The notes under the pieces: model-generated
Told to the model about the DNA's origin: nothing
The model's database searches: none
What the model saw: the letters and a program-made list of their open reading frames with translations, nothing else
Shown: one piece after another, positions 9,803 through 22,223 of the stretch
Position numbering within the stretch: the stretch's first letter is position 1
Layout: each line of letters begins with the position of its first letter
Assembly (NCBI RefSeq): GCF_007625205.1
Contig: NZ_VMNI01000020.1
Location: forward strand, 124,001-188,000
DNA: 64,000 nt
Reading direction: 5' to 3'
Origin: Denitromonas ohlonensis
GTDB lineage: Bacteria > Pseudomonadota > Gammaproteobacteria > Burkholderiales > Rhodocyclaceae
Made by a program: the position numbers and the translations under genes

Positions 9803-15445
<5,643 letters not shown>

Positions 15446-15476
15446 GCGTGCTGCCTCGTGGCGCGGGCGTTCCGGA

Positions 15477-17612
15477 TCAAACCTTGAAGCCGGAAACGGA
15501 CCCTTTCAGTTCGACGGCCAGATCGGCCAGTTCGCCAATGGATACGGCGGTTTGCTTGGTGCCGCGGGTGGTCTGTTCGGTAATGGCCTGGATGCCGCGC
15601 ATCGACTCGGCCACGCGGGTGGCGCTGGCGGCCTGGCGTTGCGTGTCGGTGGAAATCTGTTCAATCAGCGAGGCGGTTTCGGACGACACGCTGCGGATCT
15701 CGACCAGGGCCTGACCGGCAGAGTCGGACAGGGCGGCTCCGGCCACCACGTCGCGGGTGGCGGTTTCCATGGCGGACACCGCGTCCTGCGTGTCGGTCTG
15801 AATGGTCTTCACAATCGCCGAGATCTGCTTCGTGGCTTCGGCCGAGCGTTCGGCCAGCCGCTGCACTTCTTCGGCAACCACGGTAAAGCCGCGGCCGGCT
15901 TCACCGGCGGAGGCGGCCTGAATGGCGGCGTTGAGGGCGAGCACGTTGGTCTGTTCGGTAATGTCCGAAATCAGTTCCACGATTTCGCCAATCTCCTGGG
16001 ACGACTCGCCCAGACGCTTGATGCGCTTGGAGGTTTCCTGGATCTTTTCGCGAATCTCGTTCATGCCCTTGATGGTGTTTTCCACCGCGTCACGGCCTTT
16101 GTTGGCCGAATCGAGCGAGCGGCGCGCCACCTGGGCGGACTGCATGGCGAGTTCGGAGGCTTCGGTCATGGAGCGCGCCATTGACTGCACGGTATCGCCC
16201 ACTTCTTCGAGTTCTTCGGACTGTCGCTGGGCGGCGCTGAGTAGCTCGTTGGAGGTGCGGCGGGCAGCCTCGGTAGCGCTGGTCACGCGGCCGGCAGCGT
16301 CGTTGATTCGGCGCACCAGCACGGCGAGTTCTTCAACCGTGTAGTTCACCGAGTCGGCAATGGCGCCGGTGATGTCTTCGGTCACCGTGGCGCGGATGGT
16401 CAAGTCACCGTCGGCCAGATCGCCCATTTCGTTCATCAGGCGAAGAATGGCTTGCTGGGTCTGGTTCCGCTCGTCTTCGGCAGACTTCTTCTGGCCTTCG
16501 GCTTCGAGCTGTCGGGCGCCGAGGTCGTCACGATACATTTTCACCATGGCGATCAGGGTCAGCACGGCCAGCGCACCAATGACGGCAATGGCCAGCGGCA
16601 GGGTACCGAAACCGCCGTAGTAATCGGCGTAGCTGCTGGTCAGCTGGTTGGCCTGCTCGGACAGCGGGCGGGCGTTGTCGATGATTCGGCGGCCGGCCTG
16701 CTTGGCCTGCACCAGGTACTGAATGTTGCCGAGAATGCCGGAGACCGCGGCCAGACTTTCGTTAGCGACGGTTTCGAGTTCGGCGAGTTTTCCGCGGGTG
16801 GTGCCATCGGGCGTCATCTCTTTGAGCTGACCGAGAATCTCGCGGAAGCTGTTGGTGTCCTTGCCGAGCAGGAAGGCCACTTCGGGGTCGATGGCGTCGG
16901 CCACGAGCAGCGCGTTGGCGTTCTTGGCGATCCGCTGGGTCAGCATCACCAGACGGTTGGCGGTGGCGATTTCGCGGGCGCTGGCGCCGCCTTGCAGCTT
17001 GAGCGCGGCCACTTGCTCGGTGATGTCGAGCAGTAGCGCGTTCTTTTCGTTAATGGTTTCCACCGAGGTGCTGAGCGTGGTGAGGTTCTTCTCTTGCGCC
17101 AGCAGCAACTGGGTGTCTTTGTCGGTCTTGGCCCAGATGGCGGCCAGACTCTCGAGCGGCGCCGCGAACGGGGCAGGGCTGGCCGGCACGGCGCTGTCGG
17201 CTTTGGCCGGGCTGACCTGGCCCCCGGTGGTGACGGCGGCGAGGAGACGGTCGAATTCAGCGCGGCCGTTGCGAAGTTCGGCAAACGCGGCGGCATCCCC
17301 TTGCAGCGAGAGCTGACCGGACTTGGCGGTCTGCTCCGAGAGCATGCGCATTTCACCGGCGGCGAACAGGTAGGACGTGGCGTTGGCCGCCTGTTGCGTC
17401 TGCTGGTAGATCAGGACGCCGAGGGCGATGACGAGCACGAGCAGGACCGCGCCCAGCAAGCGAAGCTGATCGGCGATCGGGCGTTTGCCCAAGATGGCCA
17501 ACCCTGGGCGCGCGGCCGATGCGTTGCCGGCTTTTTGCGAGGCCTCGGACTCCATGATGGTGGGGTCCTGGGCGGCAGCGCCTTTCAGGGAAGAGGTGGT
17601 CGTTGTTGCCAT
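15477..17612 (-). CDS. pilJ: PilJ twitching motility methyl-accepting chemotaxis protein
   Basis: A 711-residue inner-membrane chemoreceptor feeding ChpA. TM1 is near residues 50-70 ([18 protein letters not shown]), a periplasmic PilJ-type four-helix sensor module follows, TM2 is at about 335-357 ([19 protein letters not shown]), then HAMP and the methyl-accepting signalling domain with the hairpin tip around [20 protein letters not shown] and [16 protein letters not shown]. These are textbook MCP motifs. It is 31 bases upstream of chpA. The C-terminus lacks a CheR-binding NWETF-type pentapeptide, and no CheR/CheB gene is found nearby. Confidence 0.95.
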
Positions 17613-17657
17613 GGCGTTCGCTCCGTGTGGATGGGCGAGGTCAGAAAGAAGGCGAAG

Positions 17658-18170
17658 TCAAACTGCGCTTGCTTCGAGGAATTCGGTGTTCGTGAGCAGC
17701 TGCGGGACGTCGATGTGCTTCCAGCGGCGACCGTGCAGATCGTTCACATGGCGAGGAATCCACGCCACGGGGGTTTCCGGTGTGTCACCGGGTTCAAAGT
17801 CTTCGGGGCTGCGCAGGCCGACTGTGTTGCTGACCAGCAAGGCGCAGTTGGCGCCGTGTCGGGCGCCGATCAGGACGAGCCGGGCGGTGCCGGCCAGCGA
17901 GGTGGTGGGGCCGCCGCAGAAGGCTGACAGGTCGATGACCCCGAACAACGTGCCGCGCACATTGGCCAGGCCGCGGAACCACGGCTGGGTGAGCGGGACG
18001 CTCGCCAGCGGCGGGACGGACAGGATTTCGCCCGCGTCAGCCAGGTCAACCAGCCATTGTTCGCCGCCGGCGGTCAGGCCCAGCAGGTCGCGCCGCGGCG
18101 CCGATTGTGCATCGGCGAGGCGTCGGACAAGGCTTTCCTGAAATTCTCTGAGGCTGATGCGCTTGGCCAT
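17658..18170 (-). CDS. pilI: PilI CheW-like chemotaxis adaptor
   Basis: A 170-residue CheW-domain protein coupling PilJ to ChpA. The CheW fold is visible as strands including GGEQWLVDLADAGEIL, the VPLTQPWFRGLANVRG loop typical of CheW, and GVIDLSAFCGG. It lies between pilH (10 bases) and pilJ (45 bases). The N-terminal RISLREFQESLVRRL helix is typical of PilI homologues. Confidence 0.92.
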   Translation of the reverse strand: MAKRISLREFQESLVRRLADAQSAPRRDLLGLTAGGEQWLVDLADAGEILSVPPLASVPLTQPWFRGLANVRGTLFGVIDLSAFCGGPTTSLAGTARLVLIGARHGANCALLVSNTVGLRSPEDFEPGDTPETPVAWIPRHVNDLHGRRWKHIDVPQLLTNTEFLEASAV

Positions 18171-18180
18171 GCGGGGCGGC

Positions 18181-18546
18181 TCAGCCGATGGCCTTGATGC
18201 GGGCCAGCAACTCGGTGTGGTCGACCGGTTTGACGAGGTAGTCGTAGGCGCCCTGACGCATGCCCCAGATCTTGTCGGTTTCCTGACCCTTGGTAGTGCA
18301 GATGATGACCGGAATGGAACGCGTGGCTTCGTCGCGCGAAATGGTGCGCGTGGCCTGGTAGCCGTTCATGCCCGGCATGACCACATCCATCAGGATCAGG
18401 TCGGGCAGTTCGCTCTTGCTCTTGGCAATGCCTTCTTCGCCGGTTTCGGCGGTGATGACCTGGTACCCGTTCTTGGTCAGCGCTTCGCTCAGTGCGTAAC
18501 GCTCCGTCGGGGAGTCGTCGACGATGAGAATTTTCTTGATCGGCAT
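18181..18546 (-). CDS. pilH: PilH-type CheY-like response regulator
   Basis: A 121-residue single-domain receiver. The acidic pocket is IVDDS (Asp10, Asp11), the phosphoacceptor is in LILMDVVMPGMNG (about residue 54), and the conserved threonine/lysine pair is in ICTTKGQ and YLVKPVDH. In Pseudomonas PilH opposes PilG and regulates retraction and phosphate flux from ChpA. It lies 11 bases after pilG. Confidence 0.93.
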   Translation of the reverse strand: MPIKKILIVDDSPTERYALSEALTKNGYQVITAETGEEGIAKSKSELPDLILMDVVMPGMNGYQATRTISRDEATRSIPVIICTTKGQETDKIWGMRQGAYDYLVKPVDHTELLARIKAIG

Positions 18547-18557
18547 GGAAGTTCAAC

Positions 18558-18953
18558 TCACTCGGTGGATTGGAGGGGCGTGCCATGCGTGGCTACGGCC
18601 CGCAGCAGACTGTCCTTGGTAAAAGGTTTGGTCAGGTATTCGTCGGAGCCGACCATACGGCCGCGCGCCCGGTCGAACAGGCCGTCCTTGGAGGACAGCA
18701 TGATGACCGGGGTCTTGGTGAGGCGGGCGTTTTTCTTGATCAGGGCGCAGGTCTGATAGCCGTCGAGGCGCGGCATCATGATGTCGACAAAAATGACATC
18801 GGGTCGGTGGTCGGCAATCTTCGCGAGGGCGTCGAAACCGTCTTCGGCGAGCACCACCTGGCAGCCCGCCTGCGCGAGAAAAATCTCAGCACTGCGTCGA
18901 ATGGTGTTGCTGTCGTCAATCACCATTACTTTCAGTCCGGTCAGATCAACCAT
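18558..18953 (-). CDS. pilG: PilG-type CheY-like response regulator
   Basis: A 131-residue receiver with VIDDSNTIRRSAE (acidic pair about residues 14-15), phosphoacceptor in VIFVDIMMPRLDG, and lysine in YLTKPFTKDSLL. PilG is the output regulator that promotes pilus extension in the Pil-Chp system. The ATG at 18953 is chosen over an upstream GTG (18959) because AGGGTGA lies at good spacing. It heads the pilGHIJ-chpA operon; a FliA-like promoter candidate is about 55 bases upstream. Confidence 0.93.
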   Translation of the reverse strand: MVDLTGLKVMVIDDSNTIRRSAEIFLAQAGCQVVLAEDGFDALAKIADHRPDVIFVDIMMPRLDGYQTCALIKKNARLTKTPVIMLSSKDGLFDRARGRMVGSDEYLTKPFTKDSLLRAVATHGTPLQSTE

Positions 18954-19016
18954 AGTCACCCTGCGTATCGGTTTGCGCTGCTCATGGAGCGCTGCACGAA
19001 GTCTTGTCGTGTATCA

Positions 19017-19051: not shown

Positions 19052-19231
19052 TTAGATTTCGACCATTTCGAAATCTTCCTTGCGCGCTTCGCACTCGGGG
19101 CAATTCCAGTTCGGGGGAATGTCTTCCCAGCGTGTTCCGGGCGCAATGCCTTCGTCTGGGAGTCCGGCGGCTTCATCGTAAATAAAGCCACAGATCAGGC
19201 ACATGTAGGTCTTGAAATCAGTCTCGAGCAT
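19052..19231 (-). CDS. rubA: Rubredoxin
   Basis: A 59-residue iron-sulfur electron carrier with one FeS4 centre. The two ligand pairs are CLIC (Cys11, Cys14) and CPEC (Cys44, Cys47), and the aromatic core includes the Y-D and W segments typical of rubredoxins. The ATG at 19231 gives the normal family length; an internal ATG at 19204 would delete the first nine residues. It is immediately upstream of pilG on the same strand and divergent from thiD. A rubredoxin beside pilGH and thiD/thiE/hemL recurs in related betaproteobacteria (recalled, not checked). Confidence 0.94.
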
Positions 19232-19372
19232 CGGTGTTCGCGTCTGCCTCGTCCGAGTCGTCCTGCTCCGCCAGCGGGGGGCGCCGGCGGAAAAGGAAGC
19301 TCGTGTCTCGTGTGTGTTCTTGTCCCGATTCCGCGGTAACGGCTCGCTCACGCTGAGATGGGCGCGGGATGC

Positions 19373-19452: not shown

Positions 19453-20247
19453 ATGCGTCATGTTGCTGCTGTTCTAGTTGTCGGCCCGGCCGACCCGACC
19501 TCCGCTGCCGGCGTGACTGCCGATGTCCTGACCATCGCGTCGCAGGGGGCCTATCCGCTGAGTGTCGTTTCGGAAATGTGCCTGCGTGACACCGCGCAAT
19601 TCGACGCGCGCATCGCGCTTGACCCCGAGCTCGTGCTTGAGCAGGCGCGGATGATTCTCGAAGACGCGCCGGTTGCCGCGATCAAGCTGACCTTGCCAGG
19701 CTCGGTTGATATGGTGGTGGCGCTGGCCGGGCTGGTGTCTGACTACGGGAACGTGCCGCTCGTGATCGAGGCGCCGTCGTTGATTCTGAACGAAGATGAC
19801 ACCGACGACTCCCCCTTGTCTGCTGCGATCGAACTCTTGTTGCCGCAGGCGGCTGTGCTGGTGGGTGATGTCGCCGTGTGCCGTCGCCTGGTGAGCTCGG
19901 CGTTTGAGGGGGACGAGTCGCAGTTGAGCGTCGAAGACCTCGGTGCCGCCTTGTGTGCGACGGGTGCGGACCATGTGTTGTTGCTCGGCGGTGCTGCCGG
20001 CGTGCAGGTGGTGCACGTTTTGCATGGGTCGTCGGGTGTGGTTCGTCGTGATGTGTTCGAGCGCGCTTCGGTGCCGGTGCTGGGCCTGGCCAGTTCCGTG
20101 TCGGCGGCGCTGGCGGCCGGCCTGGCCGAGGGGCAGGGTGTCCCCGCTGCCGTGCAGGCAGCGCTGCGTTGTGCGCATGCCGCCGAAGGCCGACACTTCC
20201 GCCTGGGCATGGGCACTGCGGTGCCTGGTCGCGGGACGCGCAAATGA
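19453..20247 (+). CDS. ThiD-like (hydroxymethylpyrimidine kinase family) protein, probably degenerate
   Basis: A 264-residue protein with ribokinase-like ThiD architecture: the N-terminal [20 protein letters not shown] aligns with the ThiD substrate strand, and the C-terminal [11 protein letters not shown] aligns with the helix after the ATP anion hole. However, the hallmark GTGCT anion-hole motif is replaced by GLASS, the N-x-x-E Mg-ATP motif reads GDVAV, and the K-S-G substrate motif is absent. Kinase activity is therefore doubtful. The gene overlaps thiE by four bases (ATGA), so a thiamine-pathway role, perhaps as a regulatory or scaffolding pseudoenzyme, is inferred. GGGAGA precedes the ATG at 19453. 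Confidence 0.75.
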
Positions 20248-20897
20248 GCGTCGCGACACCCCCGATGCGCGGCCTGTATCTGGTGACCCCCGACTGGGAC
20301 GACAGCGCGCGCCTCTTCAGCGCGGTTGACGCCGCGTTGGCGGGGCAGCCGGCTCTGCTGCAATACCGCAACAAGTCGACGGACGCCGCCCGGCGGCTGA
20401 ACGAGGCCTCGCGGCTCGCTGCACTTTGCCGGCGCGCGGGTGTGCCCTTCATCGTCAACGACGATCTCGAACTGGCGCTGCGTGTCGAGGCCGACGGCGT
20501 GCATCTTGGCCGGGACGACGGCGCGCTCGAGAGGGCGCGCGAATGCCTGGGCGCCGACCGGATGCTCGGCGTGACCTGCTACAACGATGTGGCGCGGGCG
20601 GAGGCCGCCGAGGTGCTCGGCGCCGATTATGTGGCCTTTGGCGCCATGTTTCCGTCGCCAAGCAAACCGCAGGCGGTGGTCGCCACGCCGGCCGTGCTGT
20701 CGCTGGCGCGCCAGCGTTGCGCGGTGCCGGTCGCGGCCATCGGTGGCATCACGCTGGAGAACGCCGCGCCGCTGGTCGCAGCGGGTGCGGACTTGCTTGC
20801 GGTGATCAGTGATGTTTTCATGGCGGCCGATGTGGCCGCGCGCGCGGCGGCGTATGGCGCCCTGTTTGATGGTGCGACACCGCCCGCCAGGCCCTGA
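20244..20897 (+). CDS. thiE: Thiamine-phosphate synthase
   Basis: A 217-residue TIM-barrel enzyme joining HMP-pyrophosphate and thiazole phosphate to thiamine phosphate. Recognisable blocks are LLQYRNK (pyrophosphate and pyrimidine contacts), FIVNDD, DGVHLGRDD, GVTCYN, DYVAFGAMFPSPSKP and AIGGI near the C-terminal phosphate-binding loop. Its start overlaps the stop of the ThiD-like gene (ATGA), indicating translational coupling. hemL follows 42 bases later. Confidence 0.95.
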   Translation: MSVATPPMRGLYLVTPDWDDSARLFSAVDAALAGQPALLQYRNKSTDAARRLNEASRLAALCRRAGVPFIVNDDLELALRVEADGVHLGRDDGALERARECLGADRMLGVTCYNDVARAEAAEVLGADYVAFGAMFPSPSKPQAVVATPAVLSLARQRCAVPVAAIGGITLENAAPLVAAGADLLAVISDVFMAADVAARAAAYGALFDGATPPARP

Positions 20898-20939: not shown

Positions 20940-22223
20940 ATGAGCCGAAACGAAACCTTGTTCAATCGCGCCCAAACCGTGATCCCCGGCGGCGTTAATT
21001 CTCCGGTGCGCGCCTTCGGGTCGGTCGGCGGCTTCCCGCGCTTCATCGCGCGGGCCGAAGGCTCACGCATGTGGGATGCCGACGGCGCGGCCTATATCGA
21101 CTATGTTGGCTCCTGGGGCCCGGCCATCGCCGGTCACGCCCACCCGGCCATCGTCGAGGCGGTGCGCGAGGCGGCGCTGAAGGGCTTGTCCTTTGGCGCG
21201 CCGACCGAGGCGGAAGTGGAGATTGCCGAGGAGCTGTGTGCGCATCTGCCCAGCCTCGACATGGTGCGCCTGGTCAGCTCCGGCACCGAGGCAACGATGA
21301 GCGCCATTCGTCTGGCGCGTGGTTTTACCGGCCGCGACACCATCATCAAGTTCGAAGGCTGCTACCACGGCCACGCCGACTGCCTGCTGGTCAAGGCCGG
21401 CTCCGGTCTGCTGACCTTTGGCAACCCGTCCTCCGGTGGCGTGCCCGAGGACTTCGCCAAGCACACCCTGGTGCTCGACTACAACAACCCCGAGCAGCTC
21501 GAAGAAACCTTCCGCGCCAAGGGCGACAGCATCGCCGCGGTTATCGTCGAGCCCTTCGCCGGCAACATGAACCTGATCCGCCCGAGCGACCGCTTCCTGC
21601 ATCTGCTGCGCCAGCTGTGCTCCGCGCATGGCACCGTGCTGATTTTTGACGAAGTGATGACCGGTCTGCGCGTTGGCCCGCAAGGTGTGCAAGGTCTGGT
21701 CGGCATCACGCCGGACCTCACCACCCTGGGCAAAGTCATCGGTGGCGGCATGCCGGTGGGTGCCTTTGGTGGCCGTCGCGACATCATGGAAAAGATCGCG
21801 CCGCTCGGTTCGGTGTATCAGGCCGGCACACTGTCTGGCAGTCCGGTGGCCGTCGCTGCCGGACTGGCGTCGCTCAAATTGATCCAGGCGCCGGGCTTTT
21901 ACGAAGCGCTCGAAGCGCGCACCGTGCAACTGGTCGAGGGCCTGCAGGCTGCTGCCAAACGCCACGGCGTCACTTTCTGCGCCCAATCCTTCGGTGGCAT
22001 GTTCGGACTGTATTTCGCCGACGCGTTGCCGCAGTCCTTTGCTGACGTGATGGCCTCTGATCGCAACCGCTTCAACCAGTTCTTCCATGCCATGCTCGAC
22101 GCGGGCCATTACTTTGCGCCCTCGGCCTTCGAAGCCGGCTTTGTCTCGGCCGCCCATACCGAGGTGGACATTGACGCTACCATCGCGGCAGCGGATCGGG
22201 TGTTTGCCGGCATGGCGGCGTAA
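20940..22223 (+). CDS. hemL: Glutamate-1-semialdehyde 2,1-aminomutase
   Basis: A 427-residue PLP enzyme making 5-aminolevulinate from glutamate semialdehyde, the C5 route to haem. It starts [25 protein letters not shown], as is typical. The PLP phosphate region [15 protein letters not shown], the CYHGHAD motif and the catalytic lysine in [17 protein letters not shown] (about residue 264) are all present. GGAAGAAC precedes the start. C5-pathway haem synthesis is normal for betaproteobacteria. It is probably co-transcribed with thiE. Confidence 0.96.

Follow-up and report, generated by a model that had tools for sequence, protein, structure and literature searches.

The question raised by this locus is why a thiD-like gene lying directly in front of thiE should be kept when the residues expected of a kinase have gone. 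The window analyzed here, that is, the whole stretch of 64,000 nucleotides from Denitromonas ohlonensis (positions 124,001 to 188,000 of contig NZ_VMNI01000020.1), holds this gene, thiD*, at 19453–20247 on the plus strand, and its product of 264 aa (ThiD*) was recognized by matches to PF08543 and TIGR00097, by an AlphaFold2 model and by the likeness of that model to 1ub0. The start at 19453 is favored over an in-frame ATG at 19369, as close relatives begin at the same Met, and the ThiD* protein of Denitromonas halophila SFB-3 (locus L166) is 99% identical. The coupling to thiE proposed in the initial annotation can be read directly at the junction, where the stop of thiD* and the start of thiE overlap by four bases (ATGA, 20244–20247, plus strand); thiE, for thiamine phosphate synthase, runs on the same strand from 20244 to 20897 (TIGR00693, 186 bits against a cut-off of 145). 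The conserved downstream neighbor is hemL (20940–22223, plus strand; TIGR00713, 599 bits), and a rubredoxin gene diverges upstream (19052–19231, minus strand; NF045768, 75 bits, under the cut-off of 90). Beyond it, genes for a CheW-like protein, a methyl-accepting protein, two response regulators, and a multi-Hpt CheA-like protein of 1880 aa with a long Glu-Pro repeat make up a chemotaxis-like cluster on the minus strand (9803–18959), recognized by eye.

ThiD* scores above the cut-off of the kinase domain and below that of the ThiD equivalog. The match to PF08543 (Phos_pyr_kin) reaches 99.2 bits against a cut-off of 27, and that to the ThiD equivalog TIGR00097 reaches 63.3 bits, below the cut-off of 204.95, compared with 292.4 bits for a second ThiD (ThiD2) of the same genome. 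A pyridoxal kinase identity was rejected, the one such model listed, NF009077 (pyridoxal kinase; PRK12412 and related), scoring 32.4 bits against a cut-off of 385, and no domain besides the kinase was found with the Pfam and NCBIfam profiles. The AlphaFold2 model, computed from an alignment of 39 sequences, has a pLDDT of 84.5 and a pTM of 0.87, and its best match in the comparison with solved structures, which covered the families of the VIA-align list, is Thermus ThiD 1ub0 (Z 32.0, rmsd 1.9, 232 residues aligned); ThiD* is thus predicted to keep the ThiD fold over residues 4–252. Residues 251–264, with a pLDDT below 50, form a C-terminal tail (20203–20244, plus strand) that is shorter than the PDRxFWAR of sister species. 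Of the ThiD signatures once described as kept at both ends, the N-terminal one is present, and the class-specific C-terminal tail is shortened in 6/10 members of the genus, the window's among them.

The motif columns themselves have all changed; in the ThiD family they correspond to the anion hole (which includes the catalytic Cys), the Mg motif, the ATP lid, and the residue that contacts HMP. In the alignment with 92 intact relatives (the 95 motif-keeping copies of the family sample minus L087, L110, and L129), GSGCT has become GLASS (G211-L-A-S-S215, 20083–20097), TPNxxE has become VGDVAV (V137-G-D-V-A-V142, 19861–19878), and the (K)SGD or SGRGD lid stretch reads LILNEDD (residues ~110–116, 19780–19800), all on the plus strand. 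Arg45 (19585–19587, plus strand) replaces the HMP-ring Gln/Glu of ThiD and aligns with Glu44 of Salmonella ThiD (1jxh), a residue that presumably contacts the HMP ring, and Glu106 (19768–19770, plus strand) replaces an Asp found in 92/92 intact rows. The alignment to the intact relatives is gapless in the anion-hole and NxxE columns; around the lid it has small gaps and one inserted residue (A107), and neither SGRGD nor KSGD occurs anywhere in the protein. Misalignment or shifted motifs are excluded by these gapless columns together with the ThiD fold over residues 4–252, and a sequencing error or frameshift pseudogene is excluded by the same state in 10/10 genomes of the genus. The description of a ThiD-like protein without kinase motifs is thereby borne out for GTGCT, NxxE, and KSGD, and extends to the HMP-contacting Gln/Glu; as judged from these residues, ThiD* almost certainly lacks kinase activity. 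That it might be a working ThiD diverged past recognition is barely credible: PF08543 is matched above its cut-off, and the Cys remains in the congener G150 and in the degenerate copy G041, but the window protein has lost every signature, its 63 bits with TIGR00097 stand against the 205 required, and an intact ThiD is present.

This intact ThiD was found by searching the window's genome (G000; 4.4 Mb, listed as 100% complete), as the initial annotation had proposed. ThiD2 lies on contig C33, upstream of thiC, with 292 bits to TIGR00097 and all motifs intact, and a canonical ThiD in the genome excludes ThiD* as the sole ThiD with an unusual chemistry. The genome has a single RF00059 match, a TPP riboswitch between thiD2 and thiC; in this locus (L001; C33:1048-1902 for thiD2 and 851-944 for the riboswitch) thiD2 is upstream of the riboswitch and hence not under it. 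The contig ends within thiC, whose N-terminal part scores 266 bits, under the full-length cut-off. Among 150 genomes sampled from the family, a second ThiD, with 46–100% identity to the ThiD2 of G000, was found in 60; the remaining matches were to the class-A gene, that is, the betaproteobacterial thiD of the rubredoxin/thiD-thiE-hemL locus. Six additional genomes of the window's genus also carry it. The 41 second-ThiD loci that were read (30 of the family's 60, the six more of the genus, and five of genus g96) all keep HGTGC[TS], TPNxxE, KSGD, and Gln, and a ThiC-like string is present in 24/41 of these stretches.

Motif loss and a second copy mostly occur together. The family sample, drawn from a larger group, yielded 129 class-A loci, and the stretches retrieved around them include thiE at 125 loci, hemL at 124, and a rubredoxin gene at 81; the motif G[STA]GCT is kept in 95/129 and lost in 34/129, and 33 of the 34 motif-less copies have no Cys, which only L133 (G041, GPGCI) retains. 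A second ThiD accompanies 33 of the lost and 7 of the intact copies, and none was detected beside 88 intact copies and one lost copy (G089), in a genome that is 79% complete and whose congener G030 has a second ThiD. Twenty of the 150 genomes have the second ThiD only, the search having yielded no class-A locus within its limit. All but one of the 20 gave a stretch with thiE; of these 19 stretches, 15 have hemL and no ThiD-like gene, so that the gene is missing in place, three have neither hemL nor a ThiD-like gene, and one (G103) retains a fragment of the old gene where the contig ends. In one genome, G093 (52% complete), neither a class-A locus nor a second ThiD was seen. In genus g58, G057 (L296) has thiE and hemL but no thiD*, and the two other sampled members keep a degenerate gene; some lineages can thus do without it.

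Within the window's genus, G[STA]GCT is absent from 10/10 examined genomes (47–100% identity), and the most divergent member, G150 (L251), reads GFGCS, with the Cys present and the lid, NxxE, and Gln gone. Intermediate states are found elsewhere: GAGCT with a changed lid, GAGIT or GAGVT with part of NxxE, and GAGST alongside otherwise intact motifs (L110 of G072, L129 of G074, L143 and L147 of G007 and G120, and L293-L295 of genus g96), as well as GAGAT with the N of NxxE kept. Genus g96, of family f29, has a second ThiD in 5/5 genomes tested (five of seven, with G343 and G538 left out); three of the five keep the class-A gene, each reading HGAGST with the Cys lost and the other motifs kept, and none was seen in the other two. 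Across the order, 28 of the best 30 loci read, from 295 genomes with a match, are intact, as are 74/80 named loci. In genus g104 of family f37, class-A matches in two congeners (G376:C36 and G276:C5) were counted with one in-frame TGA, for which read-through, a pseudogene, or a match overrunning its stop are candidates.

How often the motifs were lost depends in part on the tree. The ThiD tree, computed with the motif columns removed, unites 27 degenerate copies in one main clade and places a few others elsewhere, and a single origin of all 34 losses is not rejected on it by the AU test (p 0.41). In the ThiE+HemL tree, built without the gene in question and, like the ThiD tree, of a quick kind, degenerate copies of g8 and g12 fall within starred clades that also include intact ones, g43 stands separately, and G057, which has lost the gene, groups with the degenerate members of its genus g58; at least four changes of the label 'lost' fall on its starred branches, partly since 'absent' counts as a state of its own. 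When second ThiD and motif loss were compared over independent pairs, the starred branches gave four pairs, too few for significance; on average 1.4 pairs agree, none disagrees, and 2.5 do not differ. Repeated motif loss after acquisition of a second ThiD is therefore likely, rather than proven, from the placements in the ThiE+HemL tree and from genus g96.

The degenerate copies are under purifying selection. The per-genus median of omega, taken within genera, is 0.214 for degenerate copies (13 genera, 22 pairs) and 0.105 for intact ones (26 genera, 66 pairs), and omega was at least 0.92 in 120/120 runs of a neutral simulation that started from two of these genes and kept the third-position composition of each; hand-picked pairs range from 0.025 to 0.37 (degenerate, 13 pairs) and from 0.026 to 0.21 (intact, 6 pairs). 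For the window's genus, the medians are 0.267 for ThiD*, 0.276 for ThiE, and 0.250 for ThiD2, from pairs with a dS of 0.05–1.5 (43/45, 42/45, and 35/36, respectively) and with dS differing between genes; the dN of ThiD* over the same pairs (34/36, from 9/10 genus genomes, G060 being left out as no ThiD2 locus was retrieved for it) is 1.17 times that of ThiE and 2.64 times that of ThiD2. In each of the 34 degenerate loci, the gene is a single frame without a stop, with 253 aligned aa or more. The constraint on ThiD* is about twofold relaxed compared with the working ThiD of its class, equal to that on thiE, and far from none, and the combination of lost catalytic residues, a kept fold, an open frame, and purifying selection is that of a maintained pseudoenzyme of the ThiD family.

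These data bear on the view that the gene is a slowly decaying relic, redundant since the second ThiD arrived and persisting through translational coupling to thiE and the need to fold. The four-base overlap with thiE, the existence of intermediate forms (GAGCT, GAGAT, GAGST) and of full deletions, and an evolution about two times faster than that of intact copies, which indicates a partly relaxed constraint, agree with such a decay. Nevertheless, coupling requires an open frame and not a particular sequence, and omega is far below the neutral simulation; because the sequence itself is under selection, an open frame for thiE is insufficient as an explanation. Specific derived residues are also kept, 0/34 degenerate copies have an internal stop, and deletion is possible (G057), yet 27 of the 37 non-intact rows in the main group of the ThiE+HemL tree keep the gene, all of which makes a relic rather unlikely. 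ThiD* thus probably has some retained function, and the terms 'retained' and 'non-catalytic' of the initial annotation are well supported by the missing signatures, the intact second ThiD, and a purifying selection of about the strength seen in thiE, the second term being a prediction from sequence.

Some of the changes in the pocket recur. Position 45 is Q in 94/95 motif-keeping relatives of the family sample and R in 25/34 motif-less copies, the rest having G, C, or S (5/34) or the original Gln (4/34), and position 106 is E in 18/18 main-clade degenerate rows and in 89% of 27 degenerate rows (the 34 minus L086, L128, L133, L143, L147, L161, and L162). Many degenerate copies have both Q45R and D106E in common, and Q45R also appears in G007, G120, and G011, all outside the main clade of the ThiD tree. 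Every one of the 18 main-clade rows has R48 and E106, and 16/18 have R45; the window itself has Ala48. Within the window's genus, 85/264 residues are invariant in 10/10 genomes at identities down to 45%, including E41, R45, D46, T47, and E106. These changes suggest either another ligand or a structural salt bridge.

One reading of the pocket is that ThiD* acts as a metabolite sensor or regulator, which would use Arg45 to bind a phosphorylated ligand (HMP-P, HMP-PP, thiamine phosphate, PLP, or another) and feed back on the pathway without touching ThiE directly. The change from Q to R in 25/34 degenerate rows, with three cases outside the main clade, and that from D to E at position 106 in the main clade fit such a role, but the kinase domain is the only one shown by the Pfam and NCBIfam profiles, the Gln has become G, C, or S or has stayed unchanged in nine rows, and Arg45 could equally form a structural salt bridge with Glu106, so that a sensor appears decidedly unlikely. 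Very improbable, too, is a new catalysis, in which ThiD* would still be an enzyme with another reaction or phosphate donor: Asp24, Asp46, and the Gly-Met-Gly stretch are still conserved, and Asp14 nearly so, but the ATP lid, the Mg motif, the anion hole, and the Cys were lost differently between genera, unlike what would be expected of a new active site.

The link to ThiE is less clear than the retention itself. The window's ThiE is the only one in the genome over the family cut-off. The second genome match, of 90 bits, is a ThiE-like domain at G000:C37:17683-18204 (L164), in a frame of 343 aa that is possibly a Nudix-ThiE fusion. In all 34 degenerate loci thiE is on the same strand as the degenerate gene, and an overlap with thiE, taken at the nearest start codon, is found in at least 54/91 intact and in 24/34 degenerate loci; translational coupling alone shows no role, because intact copies overlap thiE too. 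Distances between ThiD* proteins correlate with those of HemL at 0.83 and with those of ThiE at 0.63, and the correlation between ThiD* and ThiE given HemL is 0.45 in degenerate and 0.40 in intact genomes. The comparison of ThiE columns between intact and degenerate genomes gave one conserved-then-lost column and one weak switch, and no interface signature, and no ThiD*-ThiE fusion was found in the 125 loci holding both. Co-evolution of the two proteins was rejected as support, neither the distance correlations nor the ThiE columns being discriminating. Codon 35 of the window's thiE (20346–20348) corresponds to a position that is Gly in 97% of 91 ThiE from intact class-A genomes, and Arg is its commonest residue in degenerate (47% of 34) or gene-missing (39% of 18) genomes; this could be lineage-specific.

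Genomes without the gene keep thiE in place, which indicates that any role is not obligatory for ThiE. For the 'thiamine-related' role once proposed, the thiE operon and descent are in favor, and the indication of thiamine synthesis comes from the neighbor thiE and from that descent; no decisive co-evolution signal accompanies them, and thiE stays where the gene has been deleted. A function linked to ThiE or thiamine is accordingly possible and, on balance, somewhat doubtful.

Our preferred reading, held tentatively and at a little less than an even chance, is that the resident ThiD became a maintained pseudoenzyme after a second ThiD came, most likely as a partner of ThiE or a binder of an intermediate. 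The starting point would be the class-A ThiD already resident at the rubredoxin/thiD-thiE-hemL locus, in a lineage that would then gain a second canonical ThiD, beside thiC in the window's genome, able to make HMP-PP. The resident copy would then lose the ATP/Mg lid, NxxE, the anion hole together with the Cys, and the Gln that contacts HMP, with the fold and the locus kept and translation still coupled to that of thiE; the losses, the second copy, the conservation, and the selection are there to be observed in the genomes, and the order of events, acquisition and then loss, is among what we infer. Purifying selection would keep ThiD* for a role without catalysis, the likeliest being that of a scaffold, stabilizer, or activator of ThiE, or else the binding of some phosphorylated intermediate, pyrimidine or thiamine, by a re-tooled pocket (Arg45, Glu106). 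This choice of partner or ligand is weakened by the deletions, by the missing signal of co-evolution with ThiE, and by the loss of the tail in the window's sub-group. A bolder version of the maintained pseudoenzyme, in which the arrival of a second ThiD makes the thiE-coupled ThiD lose catalysis in parallel in several lineages, each copy being kept as a regulator or scaffold of ThiE with an Arg pocket that reads a phosphorylated intermediate, seems unlikely; if true, the ordinary ThiD would have had a hidden second job all along.

Among known systems, ThiD itself, the HMP/HMP-P kinase (TIGR00097; 1jxh, 1ub0, 8g1h), shares with ThiD* the ribokinase-like fold (residues 4–252), the DPxxxxG...D N-terminus, and the adjoining thiE; in contrast to it, ThiD* is without GTGCT, NxxE, (K)SGD, and the HMP-contacting Gln/Glu and falls under the equivalog cut-off. 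The closest counterpart is the class-A betaproteobacterial ThiD, with which ThiD* shares the orthologous position and the core QARxLLEDxPV, SDYP, and RPGMG; unlike ThiD*, its intact forms, for instance in Azospira oryzae (L245) and Nitrosospira (L168), keep GSGCT, TPNSLEAR, and SGRGD, and in the family sample they occur where no second ThiD is detected, with 7 exceptions in 95. The dual PLK/HMPPK enzymes of Firmicutes (2i5b, 4c5n) are active kinases with the fold of ThiD* (Z 31.6 and 30.3), whereas ThiD* has neither the ATP nor the Mg motif. In Staphylococcus aureus, thiD and thiE share one operon (PMC2766623), and the text of that paper contains no word starting with 'interact'; in the main text of a Tn-Seq study of Azoarcus olearius BH72 (PMC9769520), the terms thiD, thiE, thiC, thiamin, and vitamin are absent. 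No report of a non-catalytic ThiD was found among the titles and abstract openings of the open-licence literature.

The Pfam kinase model accepts ThiD* well over its cut-off, and automated annotation may consequently label such genes kinases despite the loss of the catalytic residues. The locus offers, within one family, a graded series of intact copies alone, intact copies with a second ThiD, degenerate copies with a second ThiD, and deletions, which makes a non-catalytic role of ThiD toward ThiE directly testable. Outside this family, the plant fructokinase-like proteins FLN1 and FLN2 are not known to need kinase activity. These pfkB-type proteins are described as subunits of the plastid RNA polymerase complex (PMC3409070), and they differ from ThiD* in organism, subfamily, and partner; they are thus an analogy for the keeping of a dead ribokinase fold rather than relatives.
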